In this document: in pieces, positions 868-50,067 of the stretch
Numbering within the stretch: position 1 is the stretch's first letter
Layout: each line of letters starts with the position of its first letter
Assembly (NCBI RefSeq): GCF_000024405.1
Contig: NC_013517.1
Location: 4,123,989-4,187,988 of the forward strand
Length of the DNA: 64,000 nucleotides
Direction of reading: 5' to 3'
Source of the DNA: Sebaldella termitidis ATCC 33386
GTDB taxonomy: Bacteria; Fusobacteriota; Fusobacteriia; Fusobacteriales; Leptotrichiaceae
Notes under the pieces: model-generated
The model's input: only the letters and a program-made list of their open reading frames with translations
What the model was told of the DNA's origin: nothing
Database searches by the model: none
Program-made: the position numbers and the translations under genes

Positions 868-1563
868 TTATATGGAAAATTCTATAAATGGAATTATTTT
901 TTTCAAAAATTCTATTTCCTGATAATTTTCAATATTATAATTTGAGCTTTTTATTTTTAATATATTTTCATATTCTTTAATCGTTAATTTCCCATATACC
1001 TTATCTGGCAAATTAAGTGAATACCATTGATTTAATTTACCGTTTAGAGTTTTAGATATTTCTAGTTCATAATAATAGTCACTTGATATTTTGAGAACCC
1101 ATAATTTCTTTGATTTTCCATGATAAATTATTTCTTTTTCGTTATCTTTCAATGTTATTTTTTTTAGTTTTGTTAAATGCTCAAGTGTAATTTTAGAAAA
1201 TAATTCTAAACATTCATATTTATTTTTTCTGTCATATTCTTTAATTTCACAAAAAATATTATTTTCTATTATTTTCTTTTTATTTTTTAATTTTTTAGAA
1301 GAAATCATAATATTTTCAATTGCCTCATTTTCATATAATAAGTTATTTAATGTGCTTACTTTCTCGTATCCTCCTCTATTTGATATATCAAATAGAGTTG
1401 GTTCGTATTTTAAATAAATTATATAATTATATTCCAAAAAAATTTCTTTAATTTCTTCAACTTTTCTTCTTTCATCCCTATATTTTAAGTTTAATTTTAA
1501 ACATATTATTGTTTGAGTTAAAAATATTGTTAATAACACAAACAAAAGCAAAAACTTTTTCAA
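868..1563 (-). CDS. N-terminally anchored protein, candidate immunity protein of the FHA/CDI locus
   Basis: The 231-residue protein begins with one long hydrophobic segment (residues about 3-22), a signal anchor or signal peptide, followed by a basic, Lys-rich, hydrophilic domain that I do not recognise. It starts 8 nt after the stop of the giant FHA-type gene, with AGGAGGCATT just before the ATG, so both are on one transcript. In contact-dependent inhibition loci the gene directly after cdiA encodes the cognate immunity protein. That position is the reason for this call. An export or anchor signal would suit neutralising a toxin that acts in the periplasm. Function is inferred from position only. 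Confidence 0.5.
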   Translation of the reverse strand: MKKFLLLFVLLTIFLTQTIICLKLNLKYRDERRKVEEIKEIFLEYNYIIYLKYEPTLFDISNRGGYEKVSTLNNLLYENEAIENIMISSKKLKNKKKIIENNIFCEIKEYDRKNKYECLELFSKITLEHLTKLKKITLKDNEKEIIYHGKSKKLWVLKISSDYYYELEISKTLNGKLNQWYSLNLPDKVYGKLTIKEYENILKIKSSNYNIENYQEIEFLKKIIPFIEFSI

Positions 1564-4500: not shown

Positions 4501-7500
4501 TTTGATGCTTTTATATTTACATCGTTTCCTGAATCCAGTATTATATTATTTCCTATTATTGTACTTGCTACTGCTTCTTCCTGATAGTTTGTTTCCAGTT
4601 TGTAATAACTTGAAAATGTCCCGTTCTTTTCTCTCTTTGATTCTGTATACATAGTATTTTTATCATTCTCTATATTTATGTTATTTTCTGCTGTTAACTG
4701 AACTGTACCGTCTGATGCTACTGTACTTCCCTTTATGTTTATATCATTTGAAGCATTTATTATTACATTATTTAATCCTGTTACTTCTGAGCCTAACTTC
4801 TCTGTTGTTCTGTATAAATCATATCCATGATTTTCTTCTGTTCTCTCATAATCTTTCAAAGCTATTGTATTTATATTAACATCATTAGCCTCTATATATG
4901 TTGTTCCTCCTGATTCTGTCACTGCTCCTCTTGAAACGTAATTATCTGCTTCAATATATGTAATATTTCCAGAACTTATTACTCCTACATTCTGAATATC
5001 ATCATATATTCTGGTTCTTTCTTTTCCTTCAAGCCTGTCATGTTCTGTTGTTTCTACACCAGTCGTTATATTACTTATAGTTCCCCCTGCTGTTAACATC
5101 AGGTCTTCTTTGGCTGATATTACTGCTCCTATATTCAGTATATCATTTTTTGCATCTATTTGTATATTCATTCCTGTTATCTCTGCTGTTAATGCTCCTA
5201 CACTTTTATTTATCAGATTATCTGTATTTACATATACTGTATTACCACTTAATCTTCCCTGATTCACAAGTGTACTACTGTTTATTGCCAATGTCTCCTG
5301 TGCTGATATTGTTGTCGTTGGACTCTTTATATTCTCCAATGTTGCCTGACTTAAATATACCTGTGGTACCAGTACCTTTTCCCCGTTTACTTCCTGTTCC
5401 ACATACCAGATTATATCACTCTTCAATGCTGCTATCTGGGCTCCTGTTAAAGCCACTCCTATTGTTAATTGTAAATCTCCGCTTGTTGCCACTGCATTAT
5501 CAAGCATCTCTTTCATTAACTCTGTATCTGCTTTTCCGTTTATAAATCTTGTTCCCAGTGTTTCTAAAAGAAGATTATTCATATATTTCGTTTCATAATA
5601 GGCATCCCCTAATCTTCTCGCCATATTCCAGTCTTTTGATTCATTATACCCTATTTTACTTAAAAAATAATCACTCCCAAAAAATCTTGATAAATCTATA
5701 TACTGACTTCTTGTTTCCATTAAATACTTTGATGTTGGGTCTTTACTTTCTGCAAATAACTTACTTTGTGAACTTGTAAATACTCCTGGGTTAAACGGTA
5801 TTGTTCCTGTTGTTATTATATCTATTACTGCTGTTCTGTCTACATGTACTGTTACAGGATCGTAATATAAATCTACATCAACATCTTTTGATGTTATTGT
5901 ACTTGGATCTATTACAATTCCTGTTCCTATTTTACTGTAATCATATCCGTTGTTTATTGTTGGTGTTCCTTCTATTATTACATTATTTCCTTCTATTACT
6001 GATACACTGTCTGCTATATTGTAATCTCTTGATGTACTTTCAAGGTCTCTTCTTACTCCTATTGCATCACCATATATTGTATTTCCACTCCCATTTGTCC
6101 ACATTGTCTGCCATAATGACAGTCTTTCAGTTCCGTCATATACTTTTATTGTGGCTACATCTGTTACATTCTCTATTTTTTCTACTTTATTTGTTATTCT
6201 TAATGTTCCACCTGAACTTATTTTTGAATTTCTATTTTCTATTTCTTTTACATCAAGTGTCAGATTTCCTCCTGATAATATTCTTCCGCCTTCTGTCACA
6301 AGTCTGCTTGTATCTACATAACCTTTTAATACCTGTGTTTCATATGTTGCATTTGAAGCTGTAAGGTTTCCTGACATATATCCATAATATAAATCATAAT
6401 CTGTTGAATCTTTTATTTTTGTAAATTCTTTTTCCCTGTTTATTCCACCATTTATATTAGACTTTGCTATCCCTATTTTCCAATCATCCAGTCCTGTTAT
6501 TAAACTGCTGTTTCCCGTTTGGGCATATGCATCATCAAGTTCTCTCCATACATCATCATAAATATACTGTCCATCCCAAGTTATCCAGTATAATCTATAT
6601 TGTCCTGATACTTCCCCACCGTTTAAAAGTTTATTTCCGCTTAACAGTATATTTCCTCTGCTGTCTATTATCCCCTTTGTATTATCCAGTAAATTAAAGC
6701 CTGTTATATTAAGGGTACTCTGCCCTACTATTTCTCCGCCTGTATTATCTACATCTCCTGTTTTTATATTCATCTCATTATCACTGTATACTGATGCATC
6801 TTTATTTACAAGCTTTGTTCCTTCTATATCAAGCTTATCAAGAAATATTACCAAATCCTTATTTGTTATATTATTTCCTGATAACTTTCCTCTTTCTCCT
6901 TCTATCATGGAATTATTCAGTATATTTCCTGTTGCCAGTAATTCCACAGTACTTGCTGATATTGTTAAGTTATTCGTTATATTATTCCCTGATAATCTTA
7001 ACAACCCTGAGCTTATTATATTTCCATTGTTTGTTATATCAAATCCTGATATTAACAAATTATTTATTCCCTGTATTCTACCTTCAAGAAGTAAATTCCC
7101 TAAAGATGTTAATGTTATGTTATTTCCTCTTATTATTCCTGTATTATTATCATAAGAAAATATATTTTGTAAATTTATTGTTGCTGATTCTATTGAACTT
7201 CTATTTACTATTGATGTATTATTTAAGTTTATACTGCCATTTGATGCCAGCTTTCCTGTATTTGTTAAACTTGTATTATTAGCTGTTATCACTTCTTCTG
7301 CTAATATCTGACCGCTGTTTGTTAATACCGGTGTTGTTATCTCTATATTTTTTGAAGCTATTGTTCCTTGATTATTTATATTGCTGCTTCCTTTTAATTT
7401 TGTTGTCTCTACTACTGTTATTTTATTTGTATTTATAATATTTGTACTATCCACATCTAAATTTACTGTTACTATTTCTCCAGTATTACTAAAACTAAAG

Positions 7501-33739: not shown

Positions 33740-34088
33740 CTTTATGTTACGAATAAACCGTTTCCGTTTATCCTCTGCATGTTTCCATACAGTTCAGACT
33801 ATATCTTCACTCATTTGAGTGCTCCCCGTTTCGAATTCACTTGAATCCTACTCTACTCATCAGAACATTTTCTACTTTCGATAGTCGTTGAACGTTCATA
33901 ATATTTCTACATGTAATATCTACTTTCTTTAAAATACTAGTCTTCAATGTATTTTTGTATATCACATGTATACTTTCCTTGTTTTTTAATCTTATTATGC
34001 TTCGCTGCTGATTGCCCTCTAAATCAATTTAGTTAGGGTGTTCCAGCAATTAGAGGAGTTTATTTTTATGTGCTGAACCGATTTCTTA
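33740..34088 (-). ncRNA. Group I intron (349 nt, no ORF) in terL
   Basis: All core parts are visible on the minus strand. P1 pairs exon GCUGGAU with the intron guide GGUUCAGC and leaves the U-G pair at the 5' splice site. P3 is CUCCUC with GGGGAG, P4 is UGCUG with CAGCA, and P5 is CCCU with AGGG. P7 is GACUA in the R element (GTTCAACGACTA) with UAGUC in the S element (AAGATATAGTC). P8 is CACTC/GAGTG. P9 has a GAAA loop, and a further hairpin near the 3' end follows. The last intron base is G. The 54-nt stretch between P7 and P3' suggests subgroup IA. Precise removal restores the terL frame. No homing endonuclease is encoded. Confidence 0.9.
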
Positions 34089-34474
34089 ATCCAGCACCAA
34101 CACAAATATCCTTCCGATACTGTTATTGATGTTAATTTTAGTGGATCATCAAGCCCTCTGAACAGGATTTTCTGTCCTGTTGGTTTAAATATTAGTTCTA
34201 AAGGACTCTTTGATGATTTCCATAAATGTCTTACTCCAAGTCTGTTTATTGCCCATTCCAGATCTGAATAACAGCTTTGCCTTAAATTATCAAATACTTT
34301 TCTTACAACTAAAGCATTCGCCTCTCTGTATTTCATTATGTGATAGATTAACCATAACGCTGTCGTCCTGCTCTTTTTACTTCCACGGCTTCCCTTCACT
34401 GCTCTGTATCTTTGCCTTGAATTCCAGAATGTGTTGTATCCTTTGCCTATTACTTCACTTAGTCTTATTTCCAT
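34089..34474 (-). CDS. terL: Terminase large subunit, exon 1 (ATPase part)
   Basis: This is the 5' exon of the packaging ATPase, 128 codons plus two bases. Walker A is KGSRGSKKS (residues 27-35), and the Walker B strand is GYLCWCWI at the very end, where the intron begins within the Ile codon. Without splicing translation would run into the intron and stop at 34019, giving a useless 151-residue fragment. The gene starts 3 nt after the terS stop. TerL cuts concatemeric DNA and pumps it into the procapsid through the portal encoded next. Confidence 0.85.
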
Positions 34475-34476
34475 AC

Positions 34477-35406
34477 TTATACATCCTCTACATATTCTAT
34501 TTTTTCTTCTAACTCTATTTCTTTATCTTTTACCTTCTCGTGTTCAAATTTCTCTCTGGCCAGTTTGGAGTTATCTGTATATCCGAATAATTCTGCAAGT
34601 AGTTTCGCTGTCATATTCGCTGCTTTTAAATCTGTATCCCGGATTAAATGTTCTTCGGGAACCTGATAGGAATTCTCATTTATCTTATTTTTCACTACAT
34701 CTTTAAAGCTTCCTTCTTTAAGTTCCCCGTATATTTCAGTACCTTCTACTACCGTTCCGTCCTCAAGTTTTCCCTGGAAGGTTCTTACAGTAATCGGAGT
34801 AGTATCTTTATCAAATTTATCTACCATAAATGTTTTTACCTGTGGTATTTCTCCTGTTGCCTTTTTCAAATTAATAAACAGCTCTTCTATAAGGTCTTCT
34901 TTTGTGAAGTCTAATCCAGCTTTTTCTATTAGTATTTGCTTTATTCTTCTTATTATTTTTTGTATTTTCGGTTTCCTTAATATCCGGTTTCCTTCTCTTT
35001 CATTACTGTATCCTGCTGCTAAACTTGCCGCTTTTATATTGAACTTATACAGGAAGTAGTATGTAATGAACATCTTTTCTTTGCCTGTAAATATTGTATG
35101 CCTTTTCGTAGCCTCCACGTCTTCCAGTACTGGCTCTATTATTTCTTCAGCAAAACTTATTTTTTCCGTTTTTTCTATTTCCCCGACCATGCTGTCTTTT
35201 TCGGTCGGATTCTTTGGTCGGTTTTCTTCCTGGTCGGTCGGCAATTGGTCGGATTTTTCTTTTTTCGCCCATCTATAATCTTGTGACCACTTTATTATAG
35301 TTGCCTTACCTATCCCTTCTTTTTTAGCAAGTTTGTTAAGACTAATATCTGTATTCTCGTATATCTTCTGTATTTTTATTATGTCCTTTTTTTCATATTT
35401 AGCCAT
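34477..35406 (-). CDS. terS: Terminase small subunit (PBSX / Terminase_2 type)
   Basis: The 309-residue protein has an N-terminal helix-turn-helix for DNA recognition (ISLNKLAKKEGIGKATIIKW, residues ~17-36). After a linker comes the Terminase_2 core (FTGKEKMFITYYFLYKFNIKAASLAAGYS and onward), then a long C-terminal extension probably contacting TerL. It recognises phage DNA for packaging. It is the first gene of the late operon and is preceded by a striking terminator-like hairpin at 35441-35498. Confidence 0.85.
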   Translation of the reverse strand: MAKYEKKDIIKIQKIYENTDISLNKLAKKEGIGKATIIKWSQDYRWAKKEKSDQLPTDQEENRPKNPTEKDSMVGEIEKTEKISFAEEIIEPVLEDVEATKRHTIFTGKEKMFITYYFLYKFNIKAASLAAGYSNEREGNRILRKPKIQKIIRRIKQILIEKAGLDFTKEDLIEELFINLKKATGEIPQVKTFMVDKFDKDTTPITVRTFQGKLEDGTVVEGTEIYGELKEGSFKDVVKNKINENSYQVPEEHLIRDTDLKAANMTAKLLAELFGYTDNSKLAREKFEHEKVKDKEIELEEKIEYVEDV

Positions 35407-35427: not shown

Positions 35428-35498
35428 TCCAAAAACAAAAAGCGACCATATAACTTAATCTGATTATTTCTAATCAAATCTTTTGTTATATGGTCGCT
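35428..35498 (-). terminator. Strong hairpin terminator/attenuator ahead of terS
   Basis: A perfect 14-bp stem (AGCGACCATATAAC at 35441-35454 with GTTATATGGTCGCT at 35485-35498) is followed on the minus strand by TTTTTGTTTTT. It lies between the small early genes and terS, so it would stop early transcripts from entering the late operon unless read through. The 5' arm is part of a 28-nt direct repeat, so a second copy of that arm is available upstream. Confidence 0.7.
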
Positions 35499-35512
35499 CC
35501 TGCGTACATCAT
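35485..35512 (-). repeat. 28-nt direct repeat, copy proximal to terS
   Basis: This copy differs from the one at 35558-35585 at a single base. Its promoter-distal half is the 5' arm of the terminator stem. Read as codons from 35512 it spells MMYAGATI and stop, but without its own ribosome-binding site. Confidence 0.7.
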
Positions 35513-35557
35513 ATATTTATTCTTTTGTATTTTAATTTTTTATTTTAAAACCTTCCT

Positions 35558-35585
35558 GTTACATGGTCGCTCCTGCGTACATCAT
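35558..35585 (-). repeat. 28-nt direct repeat, distal copy
   Basis: It begins at the ATGATG that overlaps the stop of the 49-codon gene and spells MMYAGATM and stop. The ATGA overlap could allow reinitiation. As RNA it could compete with the proximal copy for the shared 3' arm of the terminator stem. Confidence 0.7.
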
Positions 35586-35731
35586 GTTCTATCTCTGCTG
35601 TTTTTTATTAACTCTTTCAGATTTACATCCAAAGTCAAATCCCCATTAGGCTTTATTTCTATAACAAATGTTCCGGTCTGTTTTTTATCTAAAAACTCTG
35701 ATAATCTCTTTAACAAATAGTCTTTTTTCAT
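35582..35731 (-). CDS. Small phage protein, 49 aa
   Basis: A 49-codon frame with an AGAGG site a few bases before the ATG encodes MKKDYLLKRLSEFLDKKQTG, then TFVIEIKPNGDLTLDVNL and KELIKNSRDRT. The helix-beta-hairpin-helix look and amphipathic pattern are protein-like. It sits between the early genes and terS, and its TGA overlaps the start of the 28-nt repeat. No family was recognised. Confidence 0.55.
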   Translation of the reverse strand: MKKDYLLKRLSEFLDKKQTGTFVIEIKPNGDLTLDVNLKELIKNSRDRT

Positions 35732-35809
35732 GCTATACCTCTATTATATCGTTATTTTTAATTTTTTTCAACTATTTTATTTCTTCTCACATTTTTCTTT
35801 TACATAAGA

Positions 35810-49032: not shown

Positions 49033-50067
49033 ATGAGAAATCCTAACGGATACGGATCCGTTTTTAAATTATCCGGAAATCGTAGAAAACCTTTTGCTGT
49101 CAGAATCACAAAAGGATGGACTGATGAAGGAAAACGGATTTATAAATATTTAAGTTATCATATTACAAGAAAGGAGGCTATGCAAGCACTAGCTTCATAT
49201 AATGCTAATCCATACAATGTAGATGAAAGTAACATTACTTTTGGCGAATTATATGAAAAATGGAGCACTAGACATTATAAGAACCTCAGTAAAAATACTA
49301 TAAAAGGTTATGAGACATGTTCAAAATATTGTAAACCAATTTTTGATATGAAAATAAAAGATATCAAAATTGTTCATTTACAGAATCTTATTGATGGACT
49401 TAATAAAAATCATGGGACATTAAAGATGATGAAGAATATTTTGAAACAAATATTTGGATATGCTATGGAATTAGATATTATTCAAAAGGACTATAGTAGA
49501 TTTCTAAAAATAGGTAAACATGTTACTATTAAGCAAAAATCCATATTCAATGACAAAGAAATTGCCGTTTTATGGAAAAATTTAGATAAATATCAGTACA
49601 TAGACACTATTTTAATTATGATTTATACTGGTATGAGAGTTGGAGAGATGCTTAATTTAAGGAAAGAAGATATTAATTTGATTGAACAAACCATTATTGT
49701 TAGAACTAGCAAAACAGAAGCAGGAACAAACAGAATTATTCCTATACATCCTAGAATAAAAGAATTAATCCAAAATAGGTACAAGAATTCTAATTCTGAT
49801 CACCTCATAACTGGCCTACAAAATAGAAATTCTATATCCTATGTTTATTATGATATAAGATTATTCAATCCTATTATGGATGAACTTAATATAAAACATA
49901 CTCCCCATGATTGTAGACATACCTTTGCAACAAGATTAAATGACGCCGGAGGAAATGCCACTGCAATAAAAAAAATGATAGGACACGAATCTTTTGCTCT
50001 GACTGAGAAAGTATATACTCATAAAAAAGTATCTGAATTGAGAAAAGCCATCGAACTTGTAAATTGA
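49033..50067 (+). CDS. int: Phage tyrosine integrase
   Basis: The 344-residue recombinase has an N-terminal arm-binding segment, a core-binding SAM-like domain (about 70-160) and a catalytic domain with all active-site residues visible: R202 (TGMRVGE), K227, H292 and R295 (PHDCRHTFA), H318 (IGHES) and Y328 (VYTH). AAAGGAGTGA precedes the ATG. It catalyses integration at attP/attB and lies at the prophage's right edge, pointing outward. Confidence 0.95.
   Translation: MRNPNGYGSVFKLSGNRRKPFAVRITKGWTDEGKRIYKYLSYHITRKEAMQALASYNANPYNVDESNITFGELYEKWSTRHYKNLSKNTIKGYETCSKYCKPIFDMKIKDIKIVHLQNLIDGLNKNHGTLKMMKNILKQIFGYAMELDIIQKDYSRFLKIGKHVTIKQKSIFNDKEIAVLWKNLDKYQYIDTILIMIYTGMRVGEMLNLRKEDINLIEQTIIVRTSKTEAGTNRIIPIHPRIKELIQNRYKNSNSDHLITGLQNRNSISYVYYDIRLFNPIMDELNIKHTPHDCRHTFATRLNDAGGNATAIKKMIGHESFALTEKVYTHKKVSELRKAIELVN

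Follow-up and report, generated by a model that had tools for sequence, protein, structure and literature searches.

The window, the whole 64-kb stretch of Sebaldella termitidis DNA that was analysed, contains a prophage whose genes run, after the primase/helicase, in the order 49-aa gene, repeat and terminator, terS, terL and late genes; the leader treated here and its neighbouring genes all lie on the minus strand (Table 1). TerS has two relatives, each of 55% identity: one in the second prophage of the same genome, the other in a different genome of the genus. At the matching place each of them shows promoter, leader and terminator, unrelated in sequence to those of the window, and no terS relative was found in the viral contig, phage or genome contig collections that were searched. 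(None of the 59 other genomes in the set of 60 has a relative of a 268-aa protein.) TerL is split by a group I intron (33775-34101, minus strand; Rfam RF00028, 58.6 bits, above the gathering score of 50), missed by the whole-window scan with Rfam and caught in a separate one; split terL genes are also present in G025:C62, G013:C4 and G014:C1.

Table 1. Features of the prophage leader and its surroundings (window positions, except for the window itself and for the R1 leaders, whose positions are those of locus L125)
Feature	Position	Strand	Remarks
Window	bases 4123989-4187988 of the largest contig (4,418,842 bases)		genome of 4,486,650 bases
Integrase	49033-50064	+	
CI-like S24 repressor	48692-47997	-	
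Replication genes, as far as primase/helicase	38953-37112	-	
Promoter TTGAAA-17-TATAAT	35743..35771	-	11/12 consensus; Shine-Dalgarno and start codon of the small gene directly after
49-aa gene	35582..35731	-	~50-aa family with P-N-G motif
28-nt repeat, copy 1	35557..35584	-	with the preceding base encodes micro-ORF MMYAGATM (ATG at 35585)
Hairpin P1 (copy 1)	35561..35587	-	(ACAUG)au(GU)a(CGC)agga(GCG)(AC)(CAUGU); overlaps the stop codon of the 49-aa gene
28-nt repeat, copy 2	35484..35511	-	with the preceding base encodes micro-ORF MMYAGATI (ATG at 35512)
Hairpin P2 (copy 2), antiterminator candidate	35487..35515	-	(UAUAUG)au(GU)a(CGC)agga(GCG)(AC)(CAUAUA)
Intrinsic terminator	35431..35498	-	14-bp outer stem (arms 35498-35485 and 35454-35441), 10-bp inner helix, U-run
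terS, late operon gene 1	34477..35406	-	Terminase_2 PF03592 (Pfam, 66.2 bits); PHROG 2606, terminase small subunit
Holin, end of late genes	10961-10548	-	
R1 leader RNA	L125 1378-1462; also L124, L181, L185, L192, L179, L180, L319-L339	+ (L125)	

A preliminary description of this DNA had placed a 14-bp hairpin with a U-run just before terS, and it is there: the arms, 14 nt each and 100% complementary, are followed by T5-G-T5, the start codon of terS lies 33 nt past the beginning of this T-run, and the loop holds the further 10-bp helix. The 86-nt terminator piece folds with a minimum free energy of -33.1 kcal/mol (z -8.1), which none of 200 shuffles equals. Compared with Rfam, the leader gives nothing at the gathering score, and a lax threshold brings in chance-level matches only. 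Judging from a census of terS loci, a terminator adjoining terS is common in Fusobacteriota prophages: a T-run hairpin lies within 120 nt upstream in 17 of 25 loci, or in 18 once the window, scored as a miss through a mis-chosen start codon, is corrected, compared with 7 of 43 other genes of the same loci. (A technical note: the energy limit for these counts is -8 kcal/mol, and the 25 loci are those of 27 places found that lie above the search cut-off. At -12 kcal/mol the same census gives 8 of 25, 9 with the window, against 3 of 43 controls; an earlier census with fixed starts, also at -12 kcal/mol, gave 5 of 11 loci plus the window, with controls of 2 in 54 and 1 in 45. The terS loci are related to one another, and Fisher values for the corrected counts are therefore only a guide.)

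The 5' arm of this terminator occurs twice. The 28-nt repeat that the preliminary description had located 73 nt upstream, with a single mismatch, has held up (27 of 28 positions identical, spacing 73), and it is the sole pair in the window with at least 26/28 identity at a distance of 200 nt or less. Its exact 21-nt core occurs twice in the window and not at all in 100 shuffles; an 18-nt core, allowing up to two mismatches, has two occurrences in the whole genome, that is, only the two copies; and the 21-nt core, allowing up to three, is confined to the window's own genome among the 60 searched. (Viral contigs scanned for a 14-nt pattern returned at least 120 stretches; these are chance-like and are excluded from the evidence.) One way to read the repetition is as DNA rather than RNA: three copies of AGCGACCATRTAAC, two of them direct and 73 bp apart and one inverted, could serve as operators or as (cos-type) terminase binding sites. 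The copies sit just before terS, and by our own arithmetic 73 bp is about seven helical turns; on the other hand, the strands make a hairpin with a T-run, and relatives possess just the two hairpin arms, so that we consider this reading very improbable.

The two micro-ORFs are likewise real, and the start of the first and the stop of the 49-aa gene share an ATGA, as had been claimed. An attenuator that senses translation through MMYAGATM/I would build on just these two facts, and it is the least credible of the readings entertained here: there is no clear Shine-Dalgarno sequence ahead of either ATG; four relatives of the cassette (G022, L229, G015 and G013; the micro-ORF listing left out L229, whose leader was read separately) keep promoter, gene and terminator and have neither the 28-nt repeat nor these peptides; and a stem forms at the U-run with either partner of the terminator's 3' arm. 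Micro-ORF attenuation was rejected as the main reading on these three grounds, and the earlier suggestion of ribosome sensing finds no support. More generally, the proposed comparison of leaders in related phages has a divided outcome: the hairpin is kept and the repeat is absent, the duplicated 5' arm being missing from all 10 other leaders examined.

What, then, might the second copy do? The 3' arm does have two possible partners, as noted earlier (copy 2 at -46.4 kcal/mol, copy 1 at -44.0 kcal/mol). An exchange between them does not amount to a switch, since both pairings end at the U-run; the part of the preliminary description that made partner exchange the switch is unsupported for that reason. 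Copy 1 was rejected as an antiterminator strand. A different pairing, which the preliminary description did not mention, comes to light when the leader is folded up to, and without, the terminator's 3' arm: copy 2 then forms a small hairpin, P2, whose 3' strand is the terminator's 5' arm, and copy 1 has its counterpart in P1; with its flank, each copy folds as a unit. The predicted stem of both has two bulges (au and a), each on the 5' side. P1 (-7.7 kcal/mol) is equalled by 2 of 200 dinucleotide shuffles and by 213 of 5000 mononucleotide shuffles (4.3%), P2 (-6.9 kcal/mol) by 6 of 200 and 110 of 5000 (2.2%); without the outer strands the 28-nt unit is unremarkable (54 of 200 and 17 of 200 shuffles are as good). 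The gain from pairing with the arm is matched by 6 of 500 shuffles for P2 and by 5 of 500 for P1. Compared over 30 nt, a stretch that begins one base ahead of the C/T difference and closes with the repeat, the copies show only two differences, and these two positions pair with each other, as C-G in P1 and as U-A in P2; by position alone, 10 of 435 position pairs are partners. The compensatory pair is suggestive rather than proof, since its left-hand partner sits at the repeat's edge, where a chance match is easy.

The consequences for termination were followed by holding one or both hairpins in place. The free leader (-46.4 kcal/mol) has the terminator formed; holding P1 gives -46.0 kcal/mol, holding P2 -44.0 kcal/mol and holding both -31.0 kcal/mol. 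With P2 alone held there is still a stem at the U-run, because copy 1 then takes the 3' arm; with both held, the 14-bp terminator stem is gone. Computation shows, in short, that P2 and the usual pairing of the terminator are mutually exclusive and that only locking both hairpins clears the U-run of its stem.

Upstream of the repeat lies the promoter of the 49-aa gene, absent from the preliminary description and one of nine sites that score at least 11/12 on the two strands of the 64-kb window. Homologues of the gene were found in three genomes, G022 (E 0.003 with a single query), G015 (E 5e-11) and G013 (E 7e-9; a two-row profile served for these two), and in viral contig L229 (IMGVR_UViG_2600254991_000001). 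Ten residues are invariant among the five members. The most suitable pair for comparison, G022 and L229, has dN 0.083 and dS 0.59, and the other pairs also have dN below dS, with dS near or past saturation in several; by this measure the ~50-aa family is evidently under purifying selection. The protein itself has no significant family in Pfam, PHROGs or NCBIfam and no relatives in the phage collection; its AF2 model, a weak one (pLDDT 70), is helix-strand-strand, and Foldseek with this model returned nothing at E 0.001 or better. A search of 60 genomes with the leader DNA returned the window itself and otherwise nothing but short AT-rich matches. (As to the composition of this set: matches in G048, G003, G034 (three), G033, G077 and G006, at E 0.006-0.05, are left out; of the 59 stretches in one search only the two that a second search also found were used; and the profile matches in G024:C27 and G035:C3 were read and contain no cassette.)

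All five phages share one arrangement: TTG(A/C)AA-17-TATAAT, a Shine-Dalgarno sequence and start codon, the ~50-aa gene, a long GACC...GGTC hairpin with a T-run, and late genes. From the predicted transcript start to the hairpin it is 238 nt in the window, 221 in G022, 223 in L229, 216 in G015 and 217 in G013. On the sequence comparison, then, the cassette is conserved and the repeat is not. What follows the hairpin varies: in L229 a small gene, a terS of PHROG 57 and a large terminase that by eye is GpA-like (G015 looks alike); in G013 a ParB-like gene with nucleotide-modification genes and, further on, a terS-like gene; in G022 a ParB/methylase-like gene and then a terS-like gene. Two side observations belong here. 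In the late region of the G013 prophage a queuine tRNA-ribosyltransferase-like gene (L231 2677-3453, minus strand; PHROG 887) lies beside genes that by eye resemble folE, queE and queD, and DNA base modification is possible. And a GC-richer stretch just before terS, seen by eye and common to L229 (~4640-4705, plus strand) and its counterpart in L230, both with terminases that are GpA-like by eye, could be a cos site.

Promoter-like sites scoring at least 9/12 were located in all five leaders; in every one the near-consensus site that precedes the small gene lies upstream of the hairpin, as does an extra 11/12 site within the small gene of G015 and of G013. The window has only a weak site (9/12, spacer 15) that would start inside the hairpin, and G022 has another weak one. 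(Elements resembling -10 pause sequences were seen by eye after the promoters and dropped, since AT-rich DNA yields them readily at random.) In four of the leaders, those of the window, L229, G015 and G013, too little space is left between the T-run and the start of the first late gene for a separate promoter, so that late transcription must cross the terminator. This bears on the view that the cassette is a moron, a term first defined for complete transcription units added to phage genomes (PMC6316719): an autonomous promoter, ~50-aa gene and terminator set between early and late genes, the protein serving the lysogen and the terminator merely ending the unit. The unit does occur in phages with different terminases and late neighbours, and it has its own near-consensus promoter and its terminator around the added gene. 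Against it stand the crossing of the terminator by late transcription and the presence of terminators adjoining terS in most related prophages, also where this gene was not found. It is a serious rival all the same, though we think it unlikely.

Another way to read the same order is as a gate of the lambda type, in which a Q-like factor modifies the polymerase near the promoter and the repeat is a neutral duplication. For lambda, PR' with its downstream terminator tR' and pausing near the promoter are established (PMC4604602). The five leaders resemble that system in running from promoter through a short leader of a few hundred nt and a terminator to the late genes, and absence of the repeat from the relatives agrees with its being neutral. 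The window's leader differs in carrying the 49-aa gene and hairpins that overlap the terminator, and why the repeated unit should be a hairpin overlapping the terminator's arm is left unexplained; moreover, no Q family member was recognised among the window proteins scanned with PHROGs (9 and 10 in two sets, one protein in both; several early proteins are without family). We regard a gate of this kind as possible, if somewhat doubtful.

The relatives have a single copy of the terminator's 5' arm, and in all four the strand just upstream can likewise pair with it. Forcing that upstream pairing costs 11 to 18 kcal/mol, and termination should therefore be their default. As for what arm pairing gains, 34 (G022), 29 (L229), 47 (G015) and 44 (G013) of 500 shuffles do as well. 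With six unrelated terS terminators, 67, 420 and, in four cases, all 500 of 500 shuffles do as well; none of the six is in the best 10%, and four have no such pairing. Combined over three groups, the arm pairing reaches p ~0.005, for chosen windows. GUAC upstream together with GACC in the arm is kept in 6 of 6 aligned units, and the fold of shorter pieces of the relatives is not significant against shuffles. Overlapping upstream pairing in the relatives is, from these comparisons, suggestive.

A parallel comes from the sister prophage of the same genome. The terminator at its equivalent place is an unrelated one, and its leader belongs to an RNA family (model R1) with 21 places in 9 of 98 Fusobacteriota genomes (E 0.001); in the seven loci scanned there was no Rfam match. 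Paired changes on both sides occur at 6 of the 18 pairs of the R1 terminator. A small hairpin, GUCC-CAAGC-GGAC, overlaps the terminator's 5' arm; it has all its pairs intact in 16 of 22 loci and draws on five pair types, a level that none of 2000 strand shuffles reaches. (Taking 4 antisense and 4 duplicate rows out of 30 matches left 22 distinct rows; among the six that fall short is the sister prophage's own leader, with one broken pair; and by energy alone the small hairpin was not significant in any of the four leaders tested.) R1 looks like a new attenuator family. Its model has no match to the window's leader, so that small gene, small hairpin and terminator follow one another here independently of the window's cassette: at 10 of the 14 newly found places, by reading, a ~50-aa gene with two CxxC-like motifs lies at most ~350 nt upstream. 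Such zinc-ribbon genes were noted shortly before the R1 RNA in L324, L325, L329-L331, L333, L336-L338 and L323, in places as tandem units of gene and hairpin. Identification of these genes with Com of phage Mu (Pfam Com, PF10122) was considered and is not supported; in one test the control matched nowhere. Separately, L181 has a 5S rRNA match (1443-1552, plus strand; 47.1 bits, gathering score 38) in a prophage-like region, ~200-250 nt before its R1 leader.

How might the pieces of the window's leader fit together? A late-operon terminator gate under antitermination is most likely, and to this extent the earlier suggestion of an attenuator or antiterminator for late genes survives: the conserved order of promoter, gene and terminator in five leaders, the lack of room for a promoter after the terminator and the sharing of the 5' arm by P2 all favour it, shorn of ribosome sensing and partner swapping. 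The specific version that we prefer, with moderate, computational support and a little short of an even chance, is a gate opened by a factor that grips both P1 and P2. The strong promoter would start a short transcript carrying the 49-aa gene, and that transcript would by default end at the intrinsic terminator just before terS; late genes would be made only when RNA polymerase reads through, and read-through would follow when an RNA-binding factor holds both hairpins. P2 would be the antiterminator, because it uses the terminator's own 5' arm; P1 would have to be held too, since copy 1, if free, can stand in for the lost arm, and it is by this substitution that the repeat would make the gate need both sites. 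That such a factor binds P1 and P2, that it is produced in the lytic phase, and which protein it is, are presumed here; the 49-aa protein is a candidate by position only, and scans of window proteins with Pfam and PHROGs recognised none as an antiterminator. Counting against the two-hairpin gate are the weakness of P1 and P2 (about -7 kcal/mol each) and the absence of the repeat from relatives.

A limited literature search found no account of late-gene activation in temperate Fusobacteriota phages. If the two-hairpin gate is real, it is a compact RNA device with two-site logic, in which the duplicated terminator arm is a back-up and both hairpins must be held. It would also suggest a general pattern, in which phage operons begin with the gene of a small protein and, beside it, the RNA that this protein targets. 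One can go further, into what is frankly speculative and rather unlikely, and imagine portable antitermination cassettes heading the late operons of Fusobacteriota phages: a ~50-aa gene and, directly behind it, a hairpin that its product recognises and that shares a strand with the terminator. The window's duplicate would turn its version into an AND gate, termination being rescued whenever the first copy is free, and a second, unrelated family, the zinc-ribbon genes with their GUCC-CAAGC-GGAC hairpins would use the same logic.

Among known systems, RinA/Ltr of Gram-positive phages control the terS operon by acting at a late promoter (PMC13123087, in whose main text the word terminator is absent), while the gate proposed for the window would act at the terminator. 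In com/mom of phage Mu, the likeness lies in a small regulator that binds an RNA hairpin of a gene from its own operon (PMC6483171); Com differs in exerting translational control and in being a zinc finger, and the 49-aa protein is without cysteines. The RAT of BglG/LicT is a single protein-stabilised hairpin over the terminator's 5' arm (PMC3369936). P2 overlaps the terminator's 5' arm in the same manner, and the window has two copies. A RAT stem carries two asymmetric internal loops; the predicted stem of the window's hairpins has its two 5'-side bulges instead, and the internal loops probably differ. No CAT/PRD protein is present among the 18 window proteins scanned, and the stem is, we presume, not the described RAT sequence. 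The proposed gate resembles the dual hairpins of the ANTAR proteins EutV, NasR and AmiR, with default termination and two small stem-loops, the second of which overlaps the terminator's 5' strand; their targets have hexanucleotide loops with A1 and G4 (PMC3369936, PMC3369931) and a linker of 5-12 nt (PMC3369931). The 18 window proteins scanned with Pfam include no ANTAR-domain protein, and the window's gate would control phage late genes. The window has the two like-looped stem-loops, the second overlapping the terminator's 5' strand, but the loop is AGGA on a CGC/GCG stem (opening the closing pair gives CAGGAG, with C at position 1), and 45 nt, as against 5-12, separate the end of P1 (35561) from the start of P2 (35515). 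Loop and spacing thus set the window's hairpins outside the ANTAR class, though the two would work alike.
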